From a virus: 20,846 nt of DNA. The stretch is taken from positions 1 to 20,846 of IMG/VR virus record IMGVR_UViG_3300043544_000038; one strand, given 5' to 3'. The translations under genes and the position numbers were made by a program. The notes beneath the pieces were generated by a model that worked only from the letters and a program-made list of their open reading frames with translations, did not search any database and had not been told where the DNA came from. Shown here piece after piece: positions 1,014 through 17,140 of the stretch; the stretch's first letter is position 1, and every line of letters starts with the position of its first letter.

Positions 1014-4000
1014 ACTGGGAGAGGGTGGCGGTGGAGGTGGAGGTGAAGGTATTGGAGATGGAGCTGGAGATGGAGGAGGAGGGGTAGGTGTTGGTTCACT
1101 GGGCTTAGATCCCAATACGCCCACATACAAGCTCTCCGTAGTCTGAGTTACGAGGGTGTTGTTAGTAAATTCTCTCCGCATCCCCTGTGTGAAAAAGTAA
1201 GTGGAAGCATTTAGGCGTGGATCGGCTATAGAGGTAACCTCTATCAACTTCTGACCAGGCGTAAGATTTGAAGGCAGGATGAATTTAGCCGTTACCATTC
1301 CATTGGCATTAGCTTTGACCGTGTTGGGAAGGGTTCCTGTCGTTCCAGTGGGGGACATTCGCACGCCGCAAGCTGATAGATCGTAAGCCGTAGCCACGGA
1401 GAGGGGAACCGTCTGGCCGTCTATCTTAGCGATAATTCCATCTTCGTAAGGATAGCAACCTCGAATCACTAGCACTATGGTTCGAGGTCTTGGCGTGGGA
1501 AGTAATTCCACATTGCTTAGTGCGAATATGCTAAAGCTCGATTGGCTAGATCTAGACATAGCCAGTGATAAGCTTCCGGGCTTAAGATCCAATTTTTCAT
1601 CATTGAGGACCCAACCGGCATCCCTTTTAGCAAAATCTTGTAAAAGTTCCTTTGCAGAATCAGGATCAGTAGACGGGGGAAGTGCCACCAGCCCTGAAAC
1701 CTCTACGGTGTTCACTTGGACATTGTTCTGTGTGGAATCGGAATACCAGATGTCCACTTTGGGAAAGCATTCAACCGAGGCTTGAGGTCGTGCAAAGAGG
1801 AAACCTGCGATCTCTTTCGCAAAGTCTTCAGTCCAAATTAGCTGAGAATCAACTGGCATTTCGGTTGCTTTTATGGTCGCTGAACTGGTCCAGAGGGACA
1901 CATCTTGGCATTCTGCTTCGCTCAAATCCAAATCCACGCCAGTAAAGCTCCGATGGATGAAAGCACGATTCTTTCTCGAGTCAATGGAGCAAGTGGAAGC
2001 ATTTATATCCATCGCAAGGTTATCCACAAAAGCATCAGTGAATAGACCCTTTTTGGGTTGGATGGTGTGCTTGGATAAAGCTTCTTGTTCCAGCGCAGTG
2101 AGAGCTAGGTTATATTCAAGTGTCTCTATTCGCTCTCTCAATACGTTGACGTCATAATCCCGAGCTACTCGATACCGAGTGGTGTTTATCATGATGGGAT
2201 CTTGTGAAAAGGCGGGCATATACATACATGACAGCGGTAACACGCCGTCGGGAGTCTTGGTCTTAGCTGGCTGTGTAGAAGATACCCCACGAATCAATTT
2301 AAAATGGCCTTCATCATCCAGAACTAGCCAAGCGAATTGGGACAGGAAGATTTGATATTCAACTAGTATATCCTCGTTTTCCGAAGCTGGCTTAAGAGTG
2401 CTAGTGGTCCGGAAATCAATATAATCTTTGTAATCCACTTCATCGTAATCATACGTGGTGGTATCATTATTCGTATAGCTATCAATGCTTACATAATCTC
2501 CTTCAACCTCATGATCCCAATAGTAATATTTCACATAGAATTTGGTTCCATCGGGCATTACATTCCCGTTGACAAATGTTATCTCTGGATACCCGATGGA
2601 TGTATTGGTCTTATTCAAATTGATAGTCCAATGTGTAGTTTCCAGGTAAGCGTTCTCATTCTCATCCACTACCACAACTGGACTTCTCGCGGATTTGATT
2701 CCATCCTTCTTGGACAATTGATAAGTTAGAATGTTGGAGTTGAAAGTGAATTCATCTTCTTGATAAGCTCGAGAACGCTTACCTTTGGTCGCAGTGGTGT
2801 AAACCAGATATTCAATGTAATAGGTCTGGCCCTGTGAAAAGACGGATGGATTCAAAGCAAAGCCATTCGACGACAGGTATACGTTCAACGTCCTATTAGC
2901 ACACCCAGGATCCGTATTGCTGAAAGTGTAAGGCGTGGTCTTAGAGCTGTTGGTCCAAACTCCAACGATTTCAGTTACTCGATACGATGTAGCATCGTAA
3001 AGCCAGCTACAGCTGTCGTAAGTGTTAGGGACAACACGGGTTTCACTGATTTTTTGTCGGACATCCACCTGCAGGACTTTCGCCACAGGATATGATCCCA
3101 TCTTATACAAATAGCCGCTCGAAGGCGAGACCTCTTCTAGCATCTCCTCCGATAAGTCCTTGGCCACATCTTCTCTCAGCCGCACTTCTCCAGATTTTCG
3201 AATCTCTCTTCCCTTTACAAAAGCCACTCCAGGAGCAATGGCTATTCGAATCTTGTCCCGATCATATGGATCTGGACTGATTCTAGTAGTGTATCCACTT
3301 ACCCAAACGAAGCCATGTAGTGAATGAAGCTTTCGAGCTATGGTTCGATCCATAACTGAATACTCGTAAACTGGACGAACCGGGTTGATGTTTCCGTCTA
3401 TGATTTCCCACATTGGAATATCAATATCATCTTTCCTAGACGACCAGGTCCAGTAGAAATACAAAAGTCGGCGTGCTGCTCCGGCTTGAGCATAGCCGGG
3501 ATAACCTTGTGCAGGGTCTAAAAGTGCTGGATCATCATTGGAATCGATGTAAACCTCTCGAACGTTTAGTCCAACATACCATGTTCCGAGGAACGGAATA
3601 GCTAACTCGCCTCCGTCTATGTCTCGGACTGCTCCCCAAGCATAAATCCTTCCAGAAGATATTTTCACTCCATTTCCAGTCCAAGTTATGTCGCAGCCCG
3701 CAACTATATCACCATTCTGGAAGAAGGCCCCTCCTAGTGACTTGATTTTCTCGTATAGAACACTTTGAATTTCGTTCAACTCGGCCGACTGCAAGCTTCG
3801 GCCAGGGAAGAATATGATGTTTTCCCAGTTGTATCTCCCGGTGGTGTTCTCCTCTGGAGGGCTCTTAGTAGAATCGGGAGCCAATACACCATAATCAACG
3901 AAAGACGTTTCCTCAGTCTCAGTCATTAAACCGAAAGCAGGTCCAATCAATCTTCCATACACACGGTATTTTTTAGCGTAAGCAACTGAACTCCAATTGA

Positions 4001-4205
4001 GGGTTATATATTGATTGTAGCCGAGATTGTCCGGAGCTCCTGAAACTACGACGCTGCCTCCATCAGTTTCTCCAGTTTCATTTACAGCCGTTACAACATA
4101 ATAGTAAACACTAGTCCCACTACCAGTTACAGTAGCCGAGACGACTGGATTTTCCATTCGAGGCTTATACCGATCATAAACATAACGGAGCAAGCTGTTA
4201 TCCAT
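1..4205 (-). CDS. Giant tail fibre/baseplate protein, DUF4815-like with C-terminal Ig-like repeats (3' end outside window)
   Basis: The frame opens at ATG 4205, nine bases after a GAGGAGGT ribosome site (4215-4222). I read it triplet by triplet to base 1 without a stop, so at least 1401 codons. Residues 1-115 look like a fibronectin-III-type domain (TVTGSGTSVYYYVVTAVNET). From about residue 124 (NWENIIFFPGRSLQSAELNE) to about 740 (GLFTDAFVDNLAMD) the pattern is that of DUF4815 phage structural proteins. This is recalled, not searched. Residues 940-1030 have a linker-like module (PSNLTPGQKLIEVT) common in large baseplate and fibre proteins. A 30-residue proline-rich hinge (1035-1064) then leads to three Ig-like repeats from residue 1065 to the window edge. 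It is the last visible gene of the wedge operon. By position and architecture it should be attached to the baseplate and extend outward to the host surface; receptor binding is inference. Confidence 0.85.
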   Translation of the reverse strand, partial: MDNSLLRYVYDRYKPRMENPVVSATVTGSGTSVYYYVVTAVNETGETDGGSVVVSGAPDNLGYNQYITLNWSSVAYAKKYRVYGRLIGPAFGLMTETEETSFVDYGVLAPDSTKSPPEENTTGRYNWENIIFFPGRSLQSAELNEIQSVLYEKIKSLGGAFFQNGDIVAGCDITWTGNGVKISSGRIYAWGAVRDIDGGELAIPFLGTWYVGLNVREVYIDSNDDPALLDPAQGYPGYAQAGAARRLLYFYWTWSSRKDDIDIPMWEIIDGNINPVRPVYEYSVMDRTIARKLHSLHGFVWVSGYTTRISPDPYDRDKIRIAIAPGVAFVKGREIRKSGEVRLREDVAKDLSEEMLEEVSPSSGYLYKMGSYPVAKVLQVDVRQKISETRVVPNTYDSCSWLYDATSYRVTEIVGVWTNSSKTTPYTFSNTDPGCANRTLNVYLSSNGFALNPSVFSQGQTYYIEYLVYTTATKGKRSRAYQEDEFTFNSNILTYQLSKKDGIKSARSPVVVVDENENAYLETTHWTINLNKTNTSIGYPEITFVNGNVMPDGTKFYVKYYYWDHEVEGDYVSIDSYTNNDTTTYDYDEVDYKDYIDFRTTSTLKPASENEDILVEYQIFLSQFAWLVLDDEGHFKLIRGVSSTQPAKTKTPDGVLPLSCMYMPAFSQDPIMINTTRYRVARDYDVNVLRERIETLEYNLALTALEQEALSKHTIQPKKGLFTDAFVDNLAMDINASTCSIDSRKNRAFIHRSFTGVDLDLSEAECQDVSLWTSSATIKATEMPVDSQLIWTEDFAKEIAGFLFARPQASVECFPKVDIWYSDSTQNNVQVNTVEVSGLVALPPSTDPDSAKELLQDFAKRDAGWVLNDEKLDLKPGSLSLAMSRSSQSSFSIFALSNVELLPTPRPRTIVLVIRGCYPYEDGIIAKIDGQTVPLSVATAYDLSACGVRMSPTGTTGTLPNTVKANANGMVTAKFILPSNLTPGQKLIEVTSIADPRLNASTYFFTQGMRREFTNNTLVTQTTESLYVGVLGSKPSEPTPTPPPPSPAPSPIPSPPPPPPPSPSCPSLSIALSNRQFQYELNQALSIPVVLTISDATVSRWTGQVSLSVTSDVPGATVSINPSSVNFRGGTQTVSATISHSAISSSSTYHITVTARANVGIACGGTVSLMDVLTLTTQPVTQPTPRCPSFYMTGTPGYFQVEQNKSITVPVKLTIRDTNSSGWSGSISLQATSEAPGATVSISPSSVQFKPNIPTQDFEVTVTHSAISAVGSYGVSINASANVGTACGGTVFFGGHRLVLDVKETVTVVRCPILAASLAPNSVRVDVGESVNLNTTLTIYDAAQSGWSGTVNLSITGQSGSVVPNSFTFTGNTTQVQLSISIPAFSSEGTRSATLVATPVG
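1014..1103 (-). other. Proline-rich hinge in the fibre protein
   Basis: Thirty codons with 19 prolines interleaved with Ser, Thr, Ala, Ile and Glu (residues 1035-1064), seen on the plus strand as a GGTGGAGG-rich stretch. It separates the DUF4815-like body from the Ig-like repeats. Such linkers usually hold domains apart as a stiff or extended spacer; that role is inferred. Confidence 0.8.
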
Positions 4206-4223
4206 TGTCTGACTACCTCCTCA

Positions 4224-4745
4224 TCAAGTCACTTTTGGAAGGATCTCAATCACTATCTCCAAAAGATTCTTACTCGAAGCCGTTCGAATGATTGGTGGAT
4301 GATTCACATATGCTAACAACTTACCCGGATCGGCCACTTGATCTGGCAGTAGCACATTATCATTTTCATGTCCCGAAGCTGGCGTGAGATCTACTGTGAT
4401 ACCGAACTGGCGAAATGTAACAACTGGAAACACATCAAATTTTAAAAGTGTAGAAGCGTAAATCCAACGAGCTCCTTCATCGTAAGCATTAGCATCAGTA
4501 ACCAAGGAATATTTTTGACCTCGGAATTCGATGTTACCACCTGGATCCTCTTTACAAAGTGAGACGGTCTCGGCCTTCTGATAACCGCCCACCTCGGAGA
4601 GAGATGAAGTATCGATGCTTTCGGAAGGTGGATTATTTTCATCGGTCCAAGGCGTCTGTATCCTAGCGACTAGAAACCACCACGCCCATTCATTCTTCAT
4701 AAACAAAGCTTGCTTAACGGTCCCAGCTATGACTGTGGTTGCCAT
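4224..4745 (-). CDS. Small baseplate protein, possibly gp8-like wedge subunit
   Basis: This 173-residue product starts at an ATG behind an AAGGAGG site. It lies between the gpI-like gene and the giant fibre gene, so a baseplate or fibre-attachment role is likely. The C-terminus (LLAYVNHPPIIRTASSKNLL then EIVIEI) resembles the ending I recall for T4-type gp8 wedge proteins, where a Y-x-N-R/H-x-P-I-x-R-S block precedes a hydrophobic beta strand. T4 gp8 is about twice as long, so this would be a reduced version or a protein sharing only that end. The N-terminus contains an aromatic run (EWAWWFLVARI) that does not look like a signal peptide. Position supports a structural role; the gp8 link is tentative. 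Confidence 0.55.
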   Translation of the reverse strand: MATTVIAGTVKQALFMKNEWAWWFLVARIQTPWTDENNPPSESIDTSSLSEVGGYQKAETVSLCKEDPGGNIEFRGQKYSLVTDANAYDEGARWIYASTLLKFDVFPVVTFRQFGITVDLTPASGHENDNVLLPDQVADPGKLLAYVNHPPIIRTASSKNLLEIVIEILPKVT

Positions 4746-4764
4746 AATTCGATCCTCCTTCCCA

Positions 4765-5466
4765 TTATGACAAAATCACTGAACATTCATTCATAACAAA
4801 ATAATACCCAGTATGCTTAGCGCGGGCCTGAGTGTCAATTTCGGATGTATATGGAACGTCTAACAGAATGTTATAACTCACTCGGTCTTCGATGTAATGT
4901 CGAGTTGCTTTTGAATCGGTATAGCATCGAGTGGCTTGCGTCTCTTCCAGGAAATAGCGAACTCCTGTGATAACAGAATACCATACGTAAACTCCAGCAC
5001 TTACGAACCTGGACAGCTCCTGGACCAAATACCACATGGACACTGGAACGGTCACTTCCACACTACCATCTCGATAATAGCTAGCGTTTTCCAAATATGA
5101 CCCAGAGAGGATTCCCTGATATGACGGCATCAAGACATCTTTAGACAAATCTCGAAGCGCATAAGTGTATCCCAGAAGTTCGAACAATCTTTGAAAAAAT
5201 TCCAGTGAACCTTTGTGGCGTATGAATCCTTTAGCAATGTCTAACAGTAACCGGTTAACTTCGTCAGTAGTCCGGTATATCAGTCCGAAACTGAATTGAT
5301 CTGCAACTTTTTCAAGAAATTCTCCACACTCATAGGCATCATAAAGCTTTTTCAGATCCCCGATATTGGATTCTATGTCCGATACCACACTTTCCAGGGC
5401 TTCAAGAAATTCCACCCATCGTTCCTCTTCAAGAAGCCATTGTGGTATCATCATGTCAAGCTTCAT
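4765..5466 (-). CDS. Baseplate protein, P2 gpI-like
   Basis: A 233-residue protein. Its first half matches the pattern of phage tail protein I: LEKVADQFSFGL, then a helix (EVNRLLLDIAKGFIRHKGSL) and a helical F-x2-LF-ELLGY segment. In the family this is the A-x-x-F, then L-L-x-x-I-x-x-H-x-x-KG signature. The second half is aromatic and beta-rich (VPVSMWYLVQELSRFV). Start ATG 5466 has GGGAG eight bases upstream and lies just past the stop of the gp6/gpJ-like gene. In P2 and Mu-type phages gpI follows gpJ in the operon and bridges wedge and fibre; the same order here supports the call. Confidence 0.75.
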   Translation of the reverse strand: MKLDMMIPQWLLEEERWVEFLEALESVVSDIESNIGDLKKLYDAYECGEFLEKVADQFSFGLIYRTTDEVNRLLLDIAKGFIRHKGSLEFFQRLFELLGYTYALRDLSKDVLMPSYQGILSGSYLENASYYRDGSVEVTVPVSMWYLVQELSRFVSAGVYVWYSVITGVRYFLEETQATRCYTDSKATRHYIEDRVSYNILLDVPYTSEIDTQARAKHTGYYFVMNECSVILS

Positions 5467-5469
5467 AGT

Positions 5470-6804
5470 TTATGCTCCCACTATGTCTACACGAGTAGAT
5501 CTCAAATTGAGAACTTGAGTAGTCAATTGCATATCCACAGATGGCGTAACCAACAGCACTCTTTTAACACCATTGATGGATTCCAATTCCGCTGTGATCT
5601 CATTGCGGTAGATCCATTGACCAATCTTAGCAGGTTTGAACAGGTTTTCTATCCGACTTAATGCTTCGGCCCTTATGGCTGAAGTTAATGCATATTTTCC
5701 AGTATATAGCACAGCGTATACATCTATATCATAACTCGGAGCTTTGAACAGCCGATAGTCCACTCCAACTGACCCCATCTGTGTAAGAACAGTCCGAATT
5801 TGGTTCTTCAATGTGTCAGTAAATACTCCGCCAGCTCCTTTTACATAAATGTCCACAGACCTGAACGGCGCGGCAAAATTATCTTTTACATCAAGAACCA
5901 TCACATCTTCCACCCCAGGAACGCTCATCACCACATACCAAAAGTCCTCTTTGGTTACAGCTCGTTTTCCAACTCCAAAAAACTTACTACACCGTTCACG
6001 GAAGGTCTCTACATCTTCATATCCGGCTCCAGAAGTGAAAGGCAAAACCGGTTCTACATCAAACCGAGGATCATCAATGGTCCAAGAGGCCGATACCGAT
6101 GGAAGATAATCAGGATCGACCAATATGTAGTAAACCGAAATGGTTTGACCGTATAGCGGTAAGCCAAATCCTCGGGAAAAATGAACTACTAGAGACTTGT
6201 CTATATCTGTGAAGACGCGAACCTGGTTGGCGTCTAGTGATTCCATAAAGTGAGTGACTACAGTGTAATTGGCGTCTCCAACTTTCACTTCTATGTCTAC
6301 ATCTGTAGCCATATCATTCGAGATCTTGTATTGTTGGGCTAGGGAATTGCCGTCCGAATTGAACTGAGTTAGAGTTCGGATTCCCTGTCGAACTGAAGCC
6401 ACTTTGTAAGGATCCGAAGGAGATATCACTGTATCCTCAACGAGGTAAAACTCCGCATCTTCACACCAAAGTTTTGTGAACTTTGGCAGGATGACGGAAG
6501 TCCCCAGCGGAGACTTGGGAATCAGTTTCACCTCACCACAAGCCCCAATCGGCCTCTTCACATAAATCTCCAACATTTTACATAGGTGGGTAAGAGATTC
6601 CCAGTATTGTGCCGTATCCACGAACATTTCCTCATAAGTGCGCTTCAGATAATAGCCAAGAATCTGTGGAATATAAGCACACAATTCGATTAACATAGTC
6701 CCTGTGGAAGACAGCCTCGCATCCTTCCACGCATTCTTGGACTGAACCAAATTCTTGAATTGAGCTACTAGTTCTTCAAATGTAAGTTTAGTCAGATCTA
6801 GCAT
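5470..6804 (-). CDS. Baseplate wedge protein, gp6/gpJ-like
   Basis: A 444-residue protein in the size range of T4-like gp6 and larger than P2 gpJ. Residues 1-80 are helical with the pattern typical of gp6/J proteins (GTMLIELCAYIPQILGYYLK). The central and C-terminal part contains FRERCSKFFGVGKRAVTKED followed by VPGVEDVMVLDVKDN, the Baseplate_J-type core in which a conserved helix precedes V-x-G-V-x-x-V. In contractile tails this protein dimerises around the hub to form the inner ring joining the wedges. GGAG lies seven bases before ATG 6804, three bases after the previous stop. This is one of the more secure assignments in the wedge operon. Confidence 0.88.
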   Translation of the reverse strand: MLDLTKLTFEELVAQFKNLVQSKNAWKDARLSSTGTMLIELCAYIPQILGYYLKRTYEEMFVDTAQYWESLTHLCKMLEIYVKRPIGACGEVKLIPKSPLGTSVILPKFTKLWCEDAEFYLVEDTVISPSDPYKVASVRQGIRTLTQFNSDGNSLAQQYKISNDMATDVDIEVKVGDANYTVVTHFMESLDANQVRVFTDIDKSLVVHFSRGFGLPLYGQTISVYYILVDPDYLPSVSASWTIDDPRFDVEPVLPFTSGAGYEDVETFRERCSKFFGVGKRAVTKEDFWYVVMSVPGVEDVMVLDVKDNFAAPFRSVDIYVKGAGGVFTDTLKNQIRTVLTQMGSVGVDYRLFKAPSYDIDVYAVLYTGKYALTSAIRAEALSRIENLFKPAKIGQWIYRNEITAELESINGVKRVLLVTPSVDMQLTTQVLNLRSTRVDIVGA

Positions 6805-10261: not shown

Positions 10262-13200
10262 TCAATTTAGACCAAGTTGCAGCATAAGTATTGCAATATC
10301 ATCTACCATCAATGGAACTCTGTTAAACTCCTCGCTTGCAATCATCGGAAATGGAGATGGTCTTTCGCCAGAGATGGTCTCGGGTTTCAACTGTTCGGTC
10401 ATGCTAGTGGCAATGGTTTCGGCTACCACCCTTTGCTTTTCGGCTTCAGCTCTGGCGGTCCTTTCCCTTCTCATTGCTTCCTCCCTCACCAGGTCTTCTG
10501 GATAATAGTCAATCACTGGTTGGGGAGGGGCTTCCATTCCCATTCCTTCAAAAGATGATCTCAAAGCTGAAAAGTCAGTCTGCAATTGATTTACAAAAGT
10601 TCCAATTTCCATTCCCTCAAAAGATGATCTCAAAGCTGAAAAGTCAGCTTGTAGCTGATCGGTAAAGGTCTCGGGAAGCCTTGCTTCGACCACCTGTCTA
10701 GCGGGCGGAGCTGGTGGAGGTTCATAGTGGGGGATTTCCTCGAAAGCCCTAGCCGCCTGTTTCATATAGCTGTCAATCTTCGACAGATACAAGACAGCTT
10801 CCTCTTCCTCTTCGAACCGCCGAGCCAGAGATTTTTGCAAAGCGGGATCTCGGGACAAAACGGTCTTGAAGAAACGTGGAAGGGTTTCCTTCTGAGCTTG
10901 GTAGATTTTGCGAATGATTTCCTCTTCGCTTAGCCTTTCCACCTCTTCCCGTTTCATTCCACGGAAGGCCTCCCCCAGAAGCCTTACTACACCTCCGGGA
11001 CCCAGTTGAACTGCCCGAGCCAACATTGCCTCGGTCAAAGCTTGACTCCGCTCAATGTCTATTCCCCAATGCTCTTTCGCATACTTGGCGGAAGGAGCAA
11101 GAAATTTTTCTCGAACGAAACCAATTTGTGCCTCAGCGAACGCTTTTCCAATGCGAGGATCGGCTGCTACTTCTTGCCACCGCTTCTTAAATTCCTCTGT
11201 TCCAGGGATCACATCTTTGAAGTATTCTTTGAATCCGGTGGCTTCGAGGAACTCTTGCACAGACTCGGGAGTGAACTGTGGTATACCATATCCCCAAATT
11301 CCCGCCACTCGAGAAACCATTCCTGCAGCCTTGCGAAGATCTTTGATAGTGGCTCCTAGCCCAGTCTCAAATCTAGCAAAGACTGCCCCAGGACCTTCCG
11401 TGATCTGGAGCTGAGCCTCGCGGATCTGCTTTACAATGGGAGTTAATTTAACGCCAATTTGCTTCAAGACGTCTTCGCTAGGCACTTCGCCTTTCGCCCA
11501 CCACCTATAAGCCTGTCCAATCTGCTTCTGCGCAAATTGGGTGGCTTCTGACACAGTTCTGGACACGGATTCAATAGCCCTTCTCGCAATCTCATGGCCT
11601 TCGCCTATTGCATCTCTTGCGGTGTCATAAGTCCATTTTGCAGCATCTTTTACCGCTCCAACGATTGTTTCGCCCACTCCGAGCACTCGGTTCAATATCC
11701 CAGAAAGTGATTTCCACGCATCCGACGCCAGCTCAACCAACTTATCAACTCCCCTTTTGATTCCATCCCAAAGATCTCCGAAGAATCCTTTCACCGCTTC
11801 CCAAGCTGACGTGAAAGCATTAGACAATGATCCGATCCAATCTTGGGTCTTGATTATCTTCTTCATTCCTTCATAGACACCTTGTGCAAACTCACCAATT
11901 TTAGGCAGAGCTGGTTCGATGAAATACTCGCTGGCTAAACTGCCGAGAATGGATCCCACTATGGCGCCAATTGGACCAAGTCGCGCCCCCAATAGACCCC
12001 CAGCCAGAGTCGCACCACCTCGAACTAGCGCCTTCCCAACTTCGCCACTTTCCAAAAATGTCTCTATCCCCGCTATTCCTGCGCCGAGATAAGGAGCCCG
12101 CTTTCCCAGAAAACCGAGAAACCTTCCAATTCGCCCCAACCTTCCCGCCTTTCCAGGAACTCCCCCTCCAGGAATCTCTGGAACCTTCCCCCTCCTCATA
12201 AGTGCACGAATTCCTATCACATCCAAAATTCGGTCAACTAAGCTCCTTCCAGCACCTTCCGCTCCCTCTATGTCCACTCCTTTGGCTTCAATTCGGAGAG
12301 TTTTGGCGGTGATTTTGGCTTCGCGATCCTGTTTAATTTCACCTTTGGAAATGCTGAGACGGGCTTCCTCTATTGACAGGTCTTCTAAGCTGGTAGCCAC
12401 CTGTGTTGCGAAAAGAGTGGGACGGAAAACTTCCGCCTCTTCCACTGCTTCATACCTGCGTCCCCAAAGTCCCCTTTCCCTTCTCGACCAAGGCACCGTT
12501 GGCCCTGCGGTAAAAGGACCCAAAGCAAATTCCATCCCACTTCGAGGATGCCTAAGAGTTGTCAATCTCCTGGGAACACCCCTTCCACCACGTCTTCGAC
12601 CCCCTCCTAACGTTCGCCCCTGTCCCCATGTCCATCTTTCCCACATTATTTCTTCATATAGCGTCCTTAACACCTGTCCAATTGGACCGAGTGCAGTGAA
12701 AGCTACATCAGCTAATTCTCGCTTCAATCCCCTCCACAACGATCCCAACATATGAGTTCCGAATGAAGCAAAAATCTGCGGGCTAAAAATCAATCTCCTA
12801 AACAGTCTCCCCAAGAAGGTTTCGCCACCTTCGGGCCGAGCCTTCTTGCGCCGATCTTTTTCCCACTCCCTTCTCCATTTTACAATCCGATCATCAATGC
12901 GTTTGAAATAGTTCTCCAACTCTTGTCGCTCTTCTGGAGTTCTCGCGGATTCATAAATTGTTCGCCGAATCTCTTCGGCCATTCGATCTCCCACTTCACG
13001 GGTCTTTTCCACTGCTTTGCGGACTTTCCGAACTTCATCGACAAGGATGGTCTGTGGACGTCCCGCCGCCACCGCAACAGGTGTAACCGGAACCGCTTTA
13101 GCCAACTCCGGCTTCATAGCATCAACGGCTTCTTTGAACGAATCTCGGATTACGGTAGACAAGTTGGCTAAGTCAAGATTCAGTTTTTCGACGCTTTTCG

Positions 13201-13720
13201 TGGGAAGGGACAAAAAATAGTCAGCGGACCTTCTCAAATTCTGTCTAAAATTTCGCAACTCATTGGTGGTAGCGGAAAGGGACATCCTGAATCCACGAGC
13301 CACTCTGCCGAATCCAGAAGCCAGTTCTCGAATCTCTTTCTTAGCTGAAGAAGCCGTGTCGGACACTTCAGTCATATCATCGGTCATAGTTTGAAAAGCA
13401 GATCGAAGATCCCTAAGCTGTCTTTCAAGTTGAGAAACCACCTGTGACACAGCTTGCAAACTGCGGGAGGAATCCGCACCAGCTTTAGCCAATTCGCTAA
13501 GTGATCGGACGGCTTCTCGGTGAGCTCGCTCCTCTTCCCGTTGCGCCCGCTCTTCTTCCATTCGCTTGCGGATGCTTTCGCGCGGCGGCCTTCTACCCCC
13601 ATATTGGGGAGCCACTTCAGGCGCCCCAGGCTCTTCGGGAAGATCTCCTTCTCCCCTTTCATAGAACTTCTCACGTTGTTCTATGAGCCGTTGTCGATTG
13701 ATTTCAAAATCTTTTTCCAA
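10262..13720 (-). CDS. Tail tape measure protein with internal lysozyme-like domain
   Basis: A 1152-residue protein, the longest complete gene here, starting at TTG 13720 behind GGAGGGGG. Residues 1-300 are charged and coiled-coil-like (Arg/Glu-rich helices). Residues 303-350 and about 544-600 are hydrophobic and glycine-rich (for example LAGGLLGARLGPIGAIVGSI), as in tape measures thought to insert in the host membrane. Helical amphipathic repeats follow (600-740), then a lysozyme-like domain (about 775-950), a proline run and a 23-residue tandem duplication (about 1022-1067). Tape length sets tail length; at the usual 1.5 Angstrom per residue this would give about 170 nm (family rule, not measured). 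It follows the frameshifting chaperone gene, the standard arrangement. Confidence 0.92.
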   Translation of the reverse strand: MEKDFEINRQRLIEQREKFYERGEGDLPEEPGAPEVAPQYGGRRPPRESIRKRMEEERAQREEERAHREAVRSLSELAKAGADSSRSLQAVSQVVSQLERQLRDLRSAFQTMTDDMTEVSDTASSAKKEIRELASGFGRVARGFRMSLSATTNELRNFRQNLRRSADYFLSLPTKSVEKLNLDLANLSTVIRDSFKEAVDAMKPELAKAVPVTPVAVAAGRPQTILVDEVRKVRKAVEKTREVGDRMAEEIRRTIYESARTPEERQELENYFKRIDDRIVKWRREWEKDRRKKARPEGGETFLGRLFRRLIFSPQIFASFGTHMLGSLWRGLKRELADVAFTALGPIGQVLRTLYEEIMWERWTWGQGRTLGGGRRRGGRGVPRRLTTLRHPRSGMEFALGPFTAGPTVPWSRRERGLWGRRYEAVEEAEVFRPTLFATQVATSLEDLSIEEARLSISKGEIKQDREAKITAKTLRIEAKGVDIEGAEGAGRSLVDRILDVIGIRALMRRGKVPEIPGGGVPGKAGRLGRIGRFLGFLGKRAPYLGAGIAGIETFLESGEVGKALVRGGATLAGGLLGARLGPIGAIVGSILGSLASEYFIEPALPKIGEFAQGVYEGMKKIIKTQDWIGSLSNAFTSAWEAVKGFFGDLWDGIKRGVDKLVELASDAWKSLSGILNRVLGVGETIVGAVKDAAKWTYDTARDAIGEGHEIARRAIESVSRTVSEATQFAQKQIGQAYRWWAKGEVPSEDVLKQIGVKLTPIVKQIREAQLQITEGPGAVFARFETGLGATIKDLRKAAGMVSRVAGIWGYGIPQFTPESVQEFLEATGFKEYFKDVIPGTEEFKKRWQEVAADPRIGKAFAEAQIGFVREKFLAPSAKYAKEHWGIDIERSQALTEAMLARAVQLGPGGVVRLLGEAFRGMKREEVERLSEEEIIRKIYQAQKETLPRFFKTVLSRDPALQKSLARRFEEEEEAVLYLSKIDSYMKQAARAFEEIPHYEPPPAPPARQVVEARLPETFTDQLQADFSALRSSFEGMEIGTFVNQLQTDFSALRSSFEGMGMEAPPQPVIDYYPEDLVREEAMRRERTARAEAEKQRVVAETIATSMTEQLKPETISGERPSPFPMIASEEFNRVPLMVDDIAILMLQLGLN
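10548..10647 (-). repeat. Tandem 69-bp duplication in the tape measure C-terminus
   Basis: Two identical 31-bp cores (10548-10578 and 10617-10647) lie 69 bp apart. They encode two consecutive 23-residue units, QLQADFSALRSSFEGM and QLQTDFSALRSSFEGM plus linkers. Near identity at DNA level indicates a recent in-frame duplication of three helical turns' worth of sequence. Confidence 0.85.
10871..11398 (-). other. Lysozyme-like (peptidoglycan hydrolase) domain inside the tape measure
   Basis: Residues about 775-950 of the tape measure read AVFARFETGLGATIKDL, then GIWGYGIPQFTPESVQEFLE, FKKRWQEVAADPRIGKAFAE, Q-x-x-F-V-R and a G-I-D helix. This follows the order I recall for lysozyme-superfamily, chitosanase-like domains: E-T/S-G, then (S)YG-x-x-Q, F-L, a W-x-x-x-A helix, A-x-x-Q-x-x-F-I, and G-I-D. 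Glu785 is the candidate catalytic acid and Gly810-Gln815 the substrate loop. The serine usual before YG is replaced by Gly. No search was run; activity is inferred. Confidence 0.5.
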
Positions 13721-13723
13721 CCT

Positions 13724-14615
13724 TTATTTCCCCCTCCGCATTTGTTTCATTAACTCGGCTTCCATCTTTTTGGTTTCTTCTAACTCAACTGCGAACCGTT
13801 TCCATTGATACACATACATTGACTCTGGAAGCAAAATGTGAAGAAAGTAAGCAATTTGAAACTGAATCTGTAGCAACCATTCCCAATGCCTACCACTGGA
13901 CAATAAGTAGAAAAAAGGGAATGGCTACCTCTACCTCCTTTCCACAAGTGGAACAGTTAGCAGTCGCGGTCTCTTTGATCCCATATGATCCTTCCCATTT
14001 TCTCACGAATTCCAGAGCCTCCCTCATCTCTGCTAGAGAAAGATCATCCACCCTTCGACCCATCACCACAGACTCCAGAACATCGAAATCATCCACTTCA
14101 CGGAACCAATCCTTGCCTTTGGGAAAATAGCCCGAGGCTCTGGGGAACCGCACCTGGACCCCACAAGGGAGAGTCACCGGCTCGGTGAAATCGTTGGGGA
14201 TAGTGGTTTCGTCCAATTGCATTAGATCTAACTTCACTCTTCCGCTAGCTCCACAGTCACATGTGTAGCCAACATCAGCCAGAGCTCCGATACTGTTCAC
14301 TCTGTGGGCCAGAAGGACCTTTTTCAGATCTGGAAGGGTGAGATCCATGAGAGAAACCTGAGGAGTGTTAGCTGTAGCTGAATAGAGAGTTCCCTGCAAG
14401 ATGGATATCATTCTCCGAATGTAACCCAGCTCAGTTTCATCAGTAGCTCGAACCAGAGGCTTGATATCCGCAACTTTCAACGGTCTAAAGGTCAATGTGG
14501 AAGGGTATCCATGTCTCCCTTGTGAGGGAAGAGTGACTGCGAAGACTTGTTCTGTGGTGGGTGGTTGAAGAACTACATTGGATCCTTCCTGAACATCCAT
14601 CATGCGGATTGGCAT
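13724..14615 (-). CDS. Frameshifted (long) tail assembly chaperone
   Basis: After codon 235 the ribosome can move +1 (or -2) on CCC-TTT-TTT-C and continue 61 codons: YLLSSGRHWEWLLQIQFQ, then IAYFLHILLPESMYVYQW and a charged helix ending MKQMRRGK, with TAA at 13724-13726, three bases before the tape measure start. The product would be about 296 residues. The extension is rich in Trp, Tyr and amphipathic helix, unlike noncoding translation. It fills a 169-bp hole that would be the largest gap in a tightly packed operon. The extension frame has a TAG six bases before the slip site and no start codon with a ribosome site, so fusion is more likely than a separate gene. A short/long chaperone pair is the rule upstream of tape measures. 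Confidence 0.7.
13890..14615 (-). CDS. Tail assembly chaperone / gp26-like hub assembly protein, unshifted product
   Basis: The frame stays open upstream to ATG 14654, but that would add a start of six consecutive arginines that are simply the ribosome site (AAGGAGGAGGAGG, 14622-14634) read as codons. ATG 14615 follows it directly and gives 241 residues (MPIRMMDVQEG). Four cysteines form a Zn-finger pattern, C119-x-C121 and C221-x2-C224, with C151 between. The helical middle (LTLPDLKKVLLAHRVN) and the two Cys pairs fit what I recall of T4-type gp26 baseplate-hub proteins. The unshifted end is IPFFLLIVQW then TAG. It sits immediately upstream of the tape measure, where tail assembly chaperones lie, and the upstream gene's stop is a TAA 14644-14646. 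Confidence 0.75.
   Translation of the reverse strand: MPIRMMDVQEGSNVVLQPPTTEQVFAVTLPSQGRHGYPSTLTFRPLKVADIKPLVRATDETELGYIRRMISILQGTLYSATANTPQVSLMDLTLPDLKKVLLAHRVNSIGALADVGYTCDCGASGRVKLDLMQLDETTIPNDFTEPVTLPCGVQVRFPRASGYFPKGKDWFREVDDFDVLESVVMGRRVDDLSLAEMREALEFVRKWEGSYGIKETATANCSTCGKEVEVAIPFFLLIVQW
13910..13941 (-). promoter_or_regulatory. Candidate programmed frameshift site with internal Shine-Dalgarno
   Basis: On the coding strand AAAGGAGGT (13941-13933), a perfect Shine-Dalgarno inside the gene, is followed after 13 bases by CCCTTTTTTC (13919-13910). Zero-frame codons are CCC TTT TTT CTA. Phe-tRNA on the second TTT can re-pair with TTC at +1, or with TTT at -2; both enter the extension frame. 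A long Shine-Dalgarno-to-slip spacing is known to favour backward shifts (as in dnaX), which favours -2 as in phage Mu. Direction is unresolved. Confidence 0.65.
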
Positions 14616-14643
14616 AGCGCGCCTCCTCCTCCTTCTTGTTCTG

Positions 14644-15186
14644 TTATCGGGCATTAGTCATTCTCTCTATAGACATCACGGCAAAGCTCACCGTGATAGT
14701 CAAAAGATCGCTTCTCGAATAATCCAACCTGAACGGTTCGGCAGAGGTGGGATAACATTCTATACATTTCACTCCCCACACCCGTTCGCCTTTCAGATTC
14801 AAAAACCAAATTTCAATATTTTTCCGAAACTCTTTCAGTGGCTTGAAATAGCGATATTTATCAGAATCACTCCGATCACTAATTAGCATACTTTGAATCC
14901 ACTTCTGGAAGTAGTTCATCACTACCATATCGTCACTTTCCCAGAAAGTGATAGACAGATCGAAGTCTTGCCAACGGGCGGGGATTTGTAGCACTCTTCC
15001 ATATGCAAGGAAGTAATTCTCAGTGTCAATTCTATCAAAAATTGGAAGGCTTACATCTTGCACCTGATATGCCAACCGCTGGACCACATCCAGAGAGGCA
15101 AAGTCCGAGGGCAGTATGACTTCAAAATTGTAAGCCCTCAATGGCTCGCGAACCTTGCCGATTATGTCAGAAAGTGCAACGGGCAA
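14644..15186 (-). CDS. Second tail-tube-like protein (tube or baseplate-tube adaptor)
   Basis: An upstream ATG (15204) is in frame, but it lies two bases after the promoter-like element and its first codons contain a GGGAGGT ribosome site (15196-15202). TTG 15186, nine bases further, gives 180 residues. The new N-terminus (PVALSDIIGKVREPLRAYNF) then aligns with that of the tail tube gene (PGLTQIAGIVEPQRAYNWEV), which strongly supports the TTG start. Conserved core: FDLSITFWESDDMVVMNYFQ and a closing LLTITVSFAVMSIE strand, typical of gp19-type tube folds. Either this or the 167-residue protein forms the tube. The other may cap the tube at the baseplate. It heads the module with chaperone and tape measure. 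Confidence 0.7.
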   Translation of the reverse strand: MPVALSDIIGKVREPLRAYNFEVILPSDFASLDVVQRLAYQVQDVSLPIFDRIDTENYFLAYGRVLQIPARWQDFDLSITFWESDDMVVMNYFQKWIQSMLISDRSDSDKYRYFKPLKEFRKNIEIWFLNLKGERVWGVKCIECYPTSAEPFRLDYSRSDLLTITVSFAVMSIERMTNAR

Positions 15187-15206
15187 CTTCCTCTTACCTC
15201 CCATAT

Positions 15207-15879: not shown

Positions 15880-16233
15880 TTACCACCATAAAGATTCTTC
15901 AAACTCTTGAAACTCGGGATATTCATTAAGGAGCTCTAGCAACATTTTCTCCATTTCACGTTCAACACGTTGGCTAAATTGATTGCTATCTATACTTTTT
16001 CGATCAATTGGCACATTCCCCACCTTAACATAATCCATTATATCATCCCAAACCACTTTACAAGTGAGGTAATAGCTACCATCCTCTTTATTGGAAGAAA
16101 ATCCTAACAAAATCCCACCCGTAAAAGGGTTGCCATACCGATCTCTACCCTCTATCCAATACGCAGTTCCAAACTCATTACGACTCTTATATGGTTCTAC
16201 ACTTATAATCTCCGCATCCGTATATATGGCCAT
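15880..16233 (-). CDS. Protein of unknown function, paralogue of the gene at 16276-16617
   Basis: A 117-residue acidic protein. Shared with its neighbour: FGTAYWIEGRDRYGNPF, a K/N-E-D-x-x-YYLTCKVVW strand, DY, a P-I-D/S-I-D-x-x-S block, FSQRVEREME and YPEFQEFEESLWW at the end. The layout (a beta-rich first half, then a charged helix) suggests a small alpha/beta domain; family not recognised. GGAGGT lies five bases before ATG 16233. It overlaps nothing but shares a 24-bp downstream block with the neighbour, showing tandem duplication. Codons look more AT-rich than the sheath or tape measure genes (by eye). Confidence 0.8.
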   Translation of the reverse strand: MAIYTDAEIISVEPYKSRNEFGTAYWIEGRDRYGNPFTGGILLGFSSNKEDGSYYLTCKVVWDDIMDYVKVGNVPIDRKSIDSNQFSQRVEREMEKMLLELLNEYPEFQEFEESLWW

Positions 16234-16275: not shown

Positions 16276-16617
16276 TTACCATTCCAAAAATTCTTCAATA
16301 TCTTCAAACTCGGGATAATTATGAAGAATTTCTCTTAACAATGCCTCCATTTCACGTTTAACTCGAGGACTAAATCGACCGCTCTCCATGCTTTCGTGGT
16401 CAATCGACTCTTCTCCCCAATCAGCATAATCCACCGCACCATTCCAAATCACTGAACAGGATAGGTAATAATCATCATCCTCTTCATTGTAAACAAATCC
16501 AAAATAGGCTATAGCCTCAAAAGGGTCACCATTCCGATCTTCGCCCTCTATCCAATACTTAGTCCCAAATTGGTAGTAACCTTCATATGAACTCTGTCTT
16601 ACGATTTCAGCATACAC
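16276..16617 (-). CDS. Protein of unknown function, paralogue of the gene at 15880-16233
   Basis: A 113-residue acidic protein, aligned end to end with its neighbour: FGTKYWIEGEDRNGDPF, N-E-E-D-x-x-YYLSCSVIW, S-I-D-x-E-S, FSPRVKREME and YPEFEDIEEFLEW. The start is GTG 16617, seven bases after AAGGAGG (16625-16631). The paralogue's ATG corresponds here to an ATA two codons upstream, only two bases from the ribosome site. The conserved Y-W-I-E-G and the YYL-x-C strand suggest a conserved fold whose function I do not recognise. The position right after the tail tube gene suggests co-expression with it. Confidence 0.8.
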   Translation of the reverse strand: MYAEIVRQSSYEGYYQFGTKYWIEGEDRNGDPFEAIAYFGFVYNEEDDDYYLSCSVIWNGAVDYADWGEESIDHESMESGRFSPRVKREMEALLREILHNYPEFEDIEEFLEW

Positions 16618-16636: not shown

Positions 16637-17140
16637 TCAGCTTTCTTCAAAGTAGTCATACATAATAGTTGCCGTATACTCGACAACATCCGATGCCTCA
16701 TAAGTCACGTCCACTGTATCAACTGCCGTTATCATTGCATTCTTCAAAGTGACCGTCCGGGTGGTATTCTCTTTTCCATCTAGCAATCTTATGCGGATTT
16801 CACCGGACACCTCAGACTTATCACCTTGGGCACCACTAAACCAATCTCCCACCAGAGTCGCCCATTGAATCAAAGCGTTGCGGATCATTTGATCCACACC
16901 TTCCCAGAACCGGACAGTGATAGTCTTGTCTCCAGTTTCACGACCACTCACCTTCCAGTTCATCCATCTCCAATTGATGTCTATGGTGTCGAATGAACGA
17001 CCTGGAACCCCGGTCCCGCGGGCTCGGAACTTCATATTATCTGAAGCTGCTAAGCCCACTGGAGTTCGAATTATTTCGACCTCCCAGTTGTAGGCTCGCT
17101 GGGGTTCTACGATTCCTGCAATTTGAGTCAAGCCAGGCAT
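16637..17140 (-). CDS. Tail tube protein, gp19-like
   Basis: A 167-residue protein with the length and pattern of T4-like tube proteins: N-terminal AGIVEPQRAYNWEVEIIRTP, a central W-M-N-W-K-V-S-G-R segment, then TITVRFWEGVDQMIRNALIQ and a final strand (ASDVVEYTATIMYDYFEES). The F-W-E-x-x-D-x-M-I core and the Y-E-A-x-D-V-V-E-Y ending are typical of gp19-type proteins. It follows the sheath gene, the near-universal order. AAGGAGGT lies eight bases before ATG 17140. It would stack as hexamers around the tape measure. The other tube-like gene at 14644-15186 is a related fold with a different role. Confidence 0.88.
   Translation of the reverse strand: MPGLTQIAGIVEPQRAYNWEVEIIRTPVGLAASDNMKFRARGTGVPGRSFDTIDINWRWMNWKVSGRETGDKTITVRFWEGVDQMIRNALIQWATLVGDWFSGAQGDKSEVSGEIRIRLLDGKENTTRTVTLKNAMITAVDTVDVTYEASDVVEYTATIMYDYFEES

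Follow-up and report, generated by a model that had tools for sequence, protein, structure and literature searches.

Comparative evidence for a probable programmed +1 frameshift in the T4 gp26-type tail assembly chaperone gene of contractile-tailed phages

Frameshifting in tail assembly chaperone genes has been described for lambda gpG/gpGT and for other phages (Xu, Hendrix and Duda, 2004; reviewed in PMC5009743). The locus studied here resembles that of lambda in that the gene lies just upstream of the tape measure gene, the shift falls near its 3′ end and a short and an extended form would be made, whereas lambda shifts by −1 in a G gene unrelated in sequence and our locus uses the +1 frame in a gene of the gp26 family. 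Phage Mu gpGT and haloarchaeal HSTV-2 (probably +1) reach the same reading frame as our locus in a chaperone of like kind, but Mu is described as a −2 case and HSTV-2 is archaeal. T4 gp26 and gp51 are known hub assembly chaperones (PMC3004832), and in an earlier view T4 was an exception to G/GT frameshifting; PMC12846349 and PMC10885494 credit the T4-like tail assembly chaperones to Vladimirov, Gautam and Davidson (2022). These proteins share with our locus the family PF12322, and the extension of T4-like phages sits at the same Phe-Phe, whereas the cyanophage-type genes shift by −1 at T_TTT_TTC and our locus and the SP-15 group use the +1 frame. Bacillus phage SP-15 (SP15_045/SP15_046) and its relatives LIS04 and SagM-GXN1 likewise have a gp26 homologue with a +1-frame extension at this Phe-Phe, the difference being that their extension is annotated as a separate gene or left as a gap.

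The DNA analysed (the window) is a stretch of 20,846 nt from IMG/VR virus record IMGVR_UViG_3300043544_000038, and its relevant features are collected in Table 1. The zero-frame product, G, matches PF12322 (T4_baseplate) at E=6.6e-14 and 52.5 bits, above the curated cut-off of 24.5 bits, and phrog_150 at E=1.4e-12. An AlphaFold2 model of G (pLDDT 86) has the SP-15 baseplate hub subunit as its best match in BFVD (E=4e-15) and also matches ACP17 and other hub proteins. A sequence search of the PDB gave no match, a fold search of the PDB gave no significant match (the HK97 chaperone 2ob9 came up at E=4.6), and an Rfam search found no element. In the window, in its relative L001 and in SP-15 the next gene downstream of the gp26-type gene encodes the tape measure protein, the expected client of the chaperones; the tail-tube-like protein encoded on the other side is a candidate partner of the extension. 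The preliminary description of this DNA had regarded a zinc-finger zero-frame partner as unusual, a view that does not survive comparison: the cysteines are no peculiarity of the window because they are near invariant in the aligned gp26 proteins of the +1 group (C132 and C234 invariant, C237 nearly so), and CxC/CxxC motifs are found in both T4 gp26 and T4 gp51.

Table 1. Features of the gp26-type chaperone locus (positions are those of the window)
Feature	Position	Strand	Evidence
Tape measure protein, 1152 aa, TTG start	10262..13720	-	phrog_167 E=2.3e-15 and other tape-measure profiles
Extension 'T', 61 codons + TAA, +1 frame, YLLSSGRHWEWLLQIQFQIAYFLHILLPESMYVYQWKRFAVELEETKKMEAELMKQMRRGK then stop	13724..13909	-	homologues in 4 relatives, purifying selection
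Gene for 'G' (254 aa), the zero-frame product, a tail assembly chaperone / hub assembly protein of the T4 gp26 family	13890..14654	-	PF12322, phrog_150, BFVD match
Overlap, bounded by extension-frame TAG 13927-13925 and zero-frame TAG 13892-13890	13890..13924	-	
Shift site CCC_TTT_TTT_C(TA)	13910..13919	-	T6C kept in L001, L002, L010, L012, SP-15; TTT_Y in 26/29 lineages
Internal Shine-Dalgarno-like AAAGGAGGT, codes part of CGKEV zinc-knuckle	13933..13941	-	anti-SD duplex -9.5 kcal/mol
Tail-tube-like protein, directly upstream, same tail operon	14644..15204	-	phrog_45 E=7e-14

The anatomy of the shift region can be read directly. The 3′ end of the G gene is GCC ATT CCC TTT TTT CTA CTT ATT GTC CAG TGG TAG, so that G ends in ...VAIPFFLLIVQW. 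In minus-strand order the Shine-Dalgarno-like element (13941-13933) is followed by 13 nt (13932-13920), CCC (13919-13917), six T (13916-13911) and a C (13910). The +1/−2 frame, once past its own TAG, stays open down to a TAA at 13726-13724, leaving 3 nt to the TTG start (13720) of the tape measure; because that TAG closes the extension frame just upstream and the zero-frame stop lies downstream, the shift is confined to an overlap of ~32 nt, within which the T run reads TTTTTTC. Without a shift, a gap of 169 nt is left before the tape measure gene. As the extension lies in the +1/−2 frame, the classical −1 pattern X_XXY_YYZ does not apply in the window. The distances, frames, 61 codons, 169-nt hole and 3-nt spacing given in the preliminary description are all correct to the base.

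Four IMG/VR relatives, from four other metagenomes, were long enough for close comparison (L001, L002, L010 and L012), and both the slip site and a homologue of the 61-residue extension, which the preliminary description had proposed to look for in related phages, are present in them. Their gp26 proteins are 46-51% identical to that of the window; all four carry CCG TTT TTT CTN, with the zero-frame stop six codons past the last TTT as in the window, followed by +1-frame extensions that share 43-48% amino acid identity with the window's and stop shortly ahead of the tape measure gene. Downstream of the zero-frame stop, pairwise differences in the extension total 171/114/260 over the three codon positions of the extension frame, and dN is 0.11-0.26 against a dS of 1.5-2.5 in the pairs where both rates were computable. 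These differences, a dN below dS and the recurrence of the break in the relatives show that the break is no indel and that the extension is a protein under purifying selection. Its conservation starts directly after Phe-Phe. The extension is predicted to form a two-helix hairpin (helices 9-27 and 30-61 of a 62-residue model, pLDDT 78); its small size and divergence explain why it gave no hits when used as the sole query.

The same arrangement extends well beyond these relatives. In SP-15, GAA TTT TTT CAC ... TAA is followed by a +1-frame extension, annotated as a separate short gene (SP15_046), and the SP-15 paper does not mention a frameshift. A like arrangement occurs in Listeria LIS04, Streptococcus SagM-GXN1 and Mel-JY01, as well as in ~20 environmental lineages. 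A scan of IMG/VR with SP-15, LIS04 and SagM as queries yielded 35 loci, and in nearly all that are complete the extension lies in the +1 frame, as a rule after GAR TTY TTT CGT CCN. Counting lineages as gp26 proteins below 80% identity with the extension in the +1 frame gives 29, and 26 of these have TTT_Y, an in-frame TTT with a pyrimidine after it, inside the overlap, TTT TTT CGT being found in nine and TTC TTT CGT in five, besides other forms; the three exceptions are LIS04 (TTT_AGT) and L053 and L062 (TTA TTY AAT CCC AGT). No position of the alignment is better conserved than Phe-Phe at the shift site. In a profile comparison the window-family and SP-15-type extensions are weakly linked (P=0.02). 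Scans of genome contigs gave no close relative of the window and one of the SP-15 type. These data are strong, as comparative evidence, for a programmed +1 frameshift in the T4 gp26-type tail chaperone gene that is conserved over a wide group of myophages.

We consider it highly probable that the window encodes the tail assembly chaperone of a T4-type contractile-tailed phage and that a +1 slip on UUU_CUA yields its extended form, GT. Standard translation of the gene would give G, while in a minority of ribosomes the P-site tRNA-Phe would slip by +1 from UUU (13913-13911) to UUC (13912-13910), so that the next codon becomes TAC (13909-13907) in the +1 frame. In the resulting GT, a 61-residue helical extension would replace the last seven residues of G. 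If lambda gpG/gpGT is a guide, the tape measure protein may be coated by G and the tail tube protein recruited by the T part, a fixed G:GT ratio setting up tail assembly and both forms being gone before the virion is finished. The chaperone role, like the occurrence and rate of the shift and its +1 direction in the window phage, is something we infer. The window has UUU_CUA within the overlap, and sites of the form UUU_Ynn are reported to be especially prone to +1 shifting in bacteria (PMC5009743). The +1 site of influenza PA-X is UUU_CGU (PMC3498833), and influenza A PA-X (UCC_UUU_CGU) and amalgaviruses (UUU_CGN) share the P-site tetranucleotide of the window, with no evident stimulator and with the A-site codon of many relatives; they differ in using eukaryotic ribosomes and an unrelated gene, and the parallel is mechanistic only.

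What else the site might need can be narrowed. Because another in-frame TTT_C stands upstream in the window gp26 (reverse-complement position 6721), the tetramer alone is insufficient. The A-site codon is not consistently rare (CTA makes up 10% of Leu codons, CTT 22%), and 3′ structure, tested as a stimulator, was not consistent across sites. The preliminary description had included the internal Shine-Dalgarno in the mechanism, a part that we do not retain: the duplex with the anti-Shine-Dalgarno is strong in the window and in L001 (−8.6 kcal/mol in the latter), but weaker or absent in the other 16 sites tested, including L002, L010, L012 and the SP-15 group. The arrangement is also not prfB-like, the element being unconserved and placed 19-27 nt upstream of the P site. 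We have therefore rejected it as a conserved feature, and AAAGGAGGT is probably no required stimulator; a low-level, stimulator-free shift would be the simplest view.

The direction of the shift was left as +1 or −2 in the preliminary description; the frame stands, and +1 is now much the likelier of the two by virtue of homologues with TTC TTT CGT and AAC TTT CTA. A −2 ribosomal frameshift at the six T, as in phage Mu gpGT, would move tRNA-Phe back two bases and give PFFFY at the joint, and the T6C of the window itself permits re-pairing in either direction, as the T run of the window family and SP-15 allows full re-pairing after −2. LIS04 (TTT TTT AGT) even re-pairs better at −2 than at +1. 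Against this, at least eight lineages have an extension in the same frame after TTC TTT C (SagM, L036, L042, L044, L050, L059 and L060) or AAC TTT C (LR756508), where a −2 slip would place tRNA-Phe on UCU or ACU and a +1 slip on its cognate UUC; moreover, a pyrimidine follows the T run in almost every lineage, a condition for +1 but not for −2 slippage. Since −2 re-pairing is impossible at TTC TTT C or at a single TTT C, and since the pyrimidine is kept, +1 is favoured: for the family we hold it with considerable confidence, the window's own case following by homology, and a −2 shift appears unlikely. The two would differ in the joint peptide, predicted for SP-15 as NSEFFTPDSTTK for +1 and NSEFFFTPDSTTK for −2.

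A +1 slip must also be weighed against explanations that need no ribosomal shift. The 61-codon reading frame might be a separate small gene, on which translation re-initiates by coupling at a TTG or GTG in frame, in line with the SP-15 and cyanophage annotations, and the window does have in-frame TTG codons at −11 and +16 from the zero-frame stop, L001 has a TTG at +19 with a strong Shine-Dalgarno, and T4-like gp51 is annotated as a gene of its own. Such starts, however, vary in place and kind: there is none in L002 before the conserved W-E-x-L-L motif (WEALL), the 69-codon extension of L052 lacks any ATG, GTG or TTG, and 17 of 27 loci have no ATG near the extension start, while the conserved protein begins right past Phe-Phe and the shift codon itself is conserved. 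We thus regard a separate gene as very improbable, and the preliminary description's central proposal, a programmed +1/−2 shift in a gp26-like gene upstream of the tape measure that makes a long chaperone form, is supported by distant phages that keep the arrangement and by L052 with no alternative start. Transcriptional rather than ribosomal slippage on the T run would be conceivable for the six T of the window family, but the run is short, and in homologues whose extension is in the same frame it is interrupted (TTC TTT C); we give this explanation hardly any credence. Least credible of all, with a probability close to nil, is a sequencing or assembly indel or a decayed gene: a frame break next to a homopolymer in a single contig would invite this suspicion, yet the identical break recurs in independent contigs as well as in complete phage genomes, and the sequence on either side of it is under selection. 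The relatives thus already refute it, and the T-run indel that the preliminary description had named as a refutation is excluded.

Among T4-like homologues the same junction is decoded differently. In all 78 distinct cyanophage-type contigs the gene reads NNT TTT TTC NNN stop and the extension lies in the −1 frame; whichever amino acid the codon before Phe-Phe specifies (Ser, Asn, Ala, Asp or Gly), its last base is T, and the site is the classical −1 sequence T_TTT_TTC. The extension in these phages is what is annotated as 'gp51 hub assembly catalyst' (phrog_634). Cyanophage 'gp51' would come at least in part from the −1 shift, which is probably its sole source in some genomes. T4 has two PF12322 genes and the 14 other phages tested have one each (Mel-JY01 falls below threshold). 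Both T4 gp26 and T4 gp51 belong to the family; gp26 is without the extension and gp51 consists of a gp26-like part fused in frame to an extension that matches phrog_634 at E=1.2e-23, as if the G and GT forms had been turned into separate genes. Profile comparison relates the extensions of SP-15 type and of T4-like phages (P=1.6e-7) and also links the C-terminus of T4 gp51 (P=8e-5); window-family against T4-like extensions gives P=0.62. In the T4 record (L033) the paralogous genes 26 and 51 lie on opposite strands at 3803-4429 (−) and 4480-5229 (+). We also note gp51-type −1 extensions after GAT TTT TTC that are unannotated in Aeh1 (L029, 1917-2126) and ACP17 (L026, 1866-2123).

The 2022 work of Vladimirov and colleagues is said to have identified gp26 and gp51 of T4-like phages as tail chaperones; both this and tail-chaperone frameshifting are already published, and the conserved +1 version of the family is what is new. 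On balance we lean towards a scheme in which one broad contractile-tailed clade (the window family and SP-15-like phages) uses a conserved, stimulator-free +1 shift at UUU_CGN/UUU_CUN, T4-like phages shift by −1 at the same Phe-Phe, and in T4 a duplication replaced the shift. If this is true, the same homologous pair of genes has persisted under three different ways of decoding. With the T4-like homologue shifting by −1 at the very pair of Phe codons used here, this gene family would offer a natural experiment on how shift direction changes under constant products. Natural +1 sites that lack a stop codon are scarce and easily overlooked, and the present set would add ~25 conserved lineages in bacteria with a minimal site UUU_Y, often UUU_CGU like PA-X. 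For annotation, SP15_046-type orphan reading frames, or the gap before the tape measure gene in many myophages, should be read as encoding the chaperone's C-terminal part. Few of the bacterial genomes scanned carry PF12322 (5 of 395 in the class, 4 of 392 in the phylum), and the gp26-type family therefore looks to be mainly one of virulent phages.

Several minor observations concern the same genes. L053, L056, L057, L058, L062 and L063 have AAT CCC AGT near the end of gp26, without TTT_Y and yet with the extension in the +1 frame, and in these the shift may occur on CCC_A. Residues 809-973 of the window tape measure protein form a VgrG3-like C-terminal domain (PF21277, E=4.5e-20) that is probably cell-wall lytic. 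Two tail-tube paralogues (phrog_45; 14644-15204 and 16637-17140, both on the minus strand) flank a block of small unknown genes, and L001 and L002 apparently also have two such paralogues. Within the window, two adjacent proteins of ~115 aa (15880-16233 and 16276-16617, minus strand) look alike by eye and have no PHROG match.
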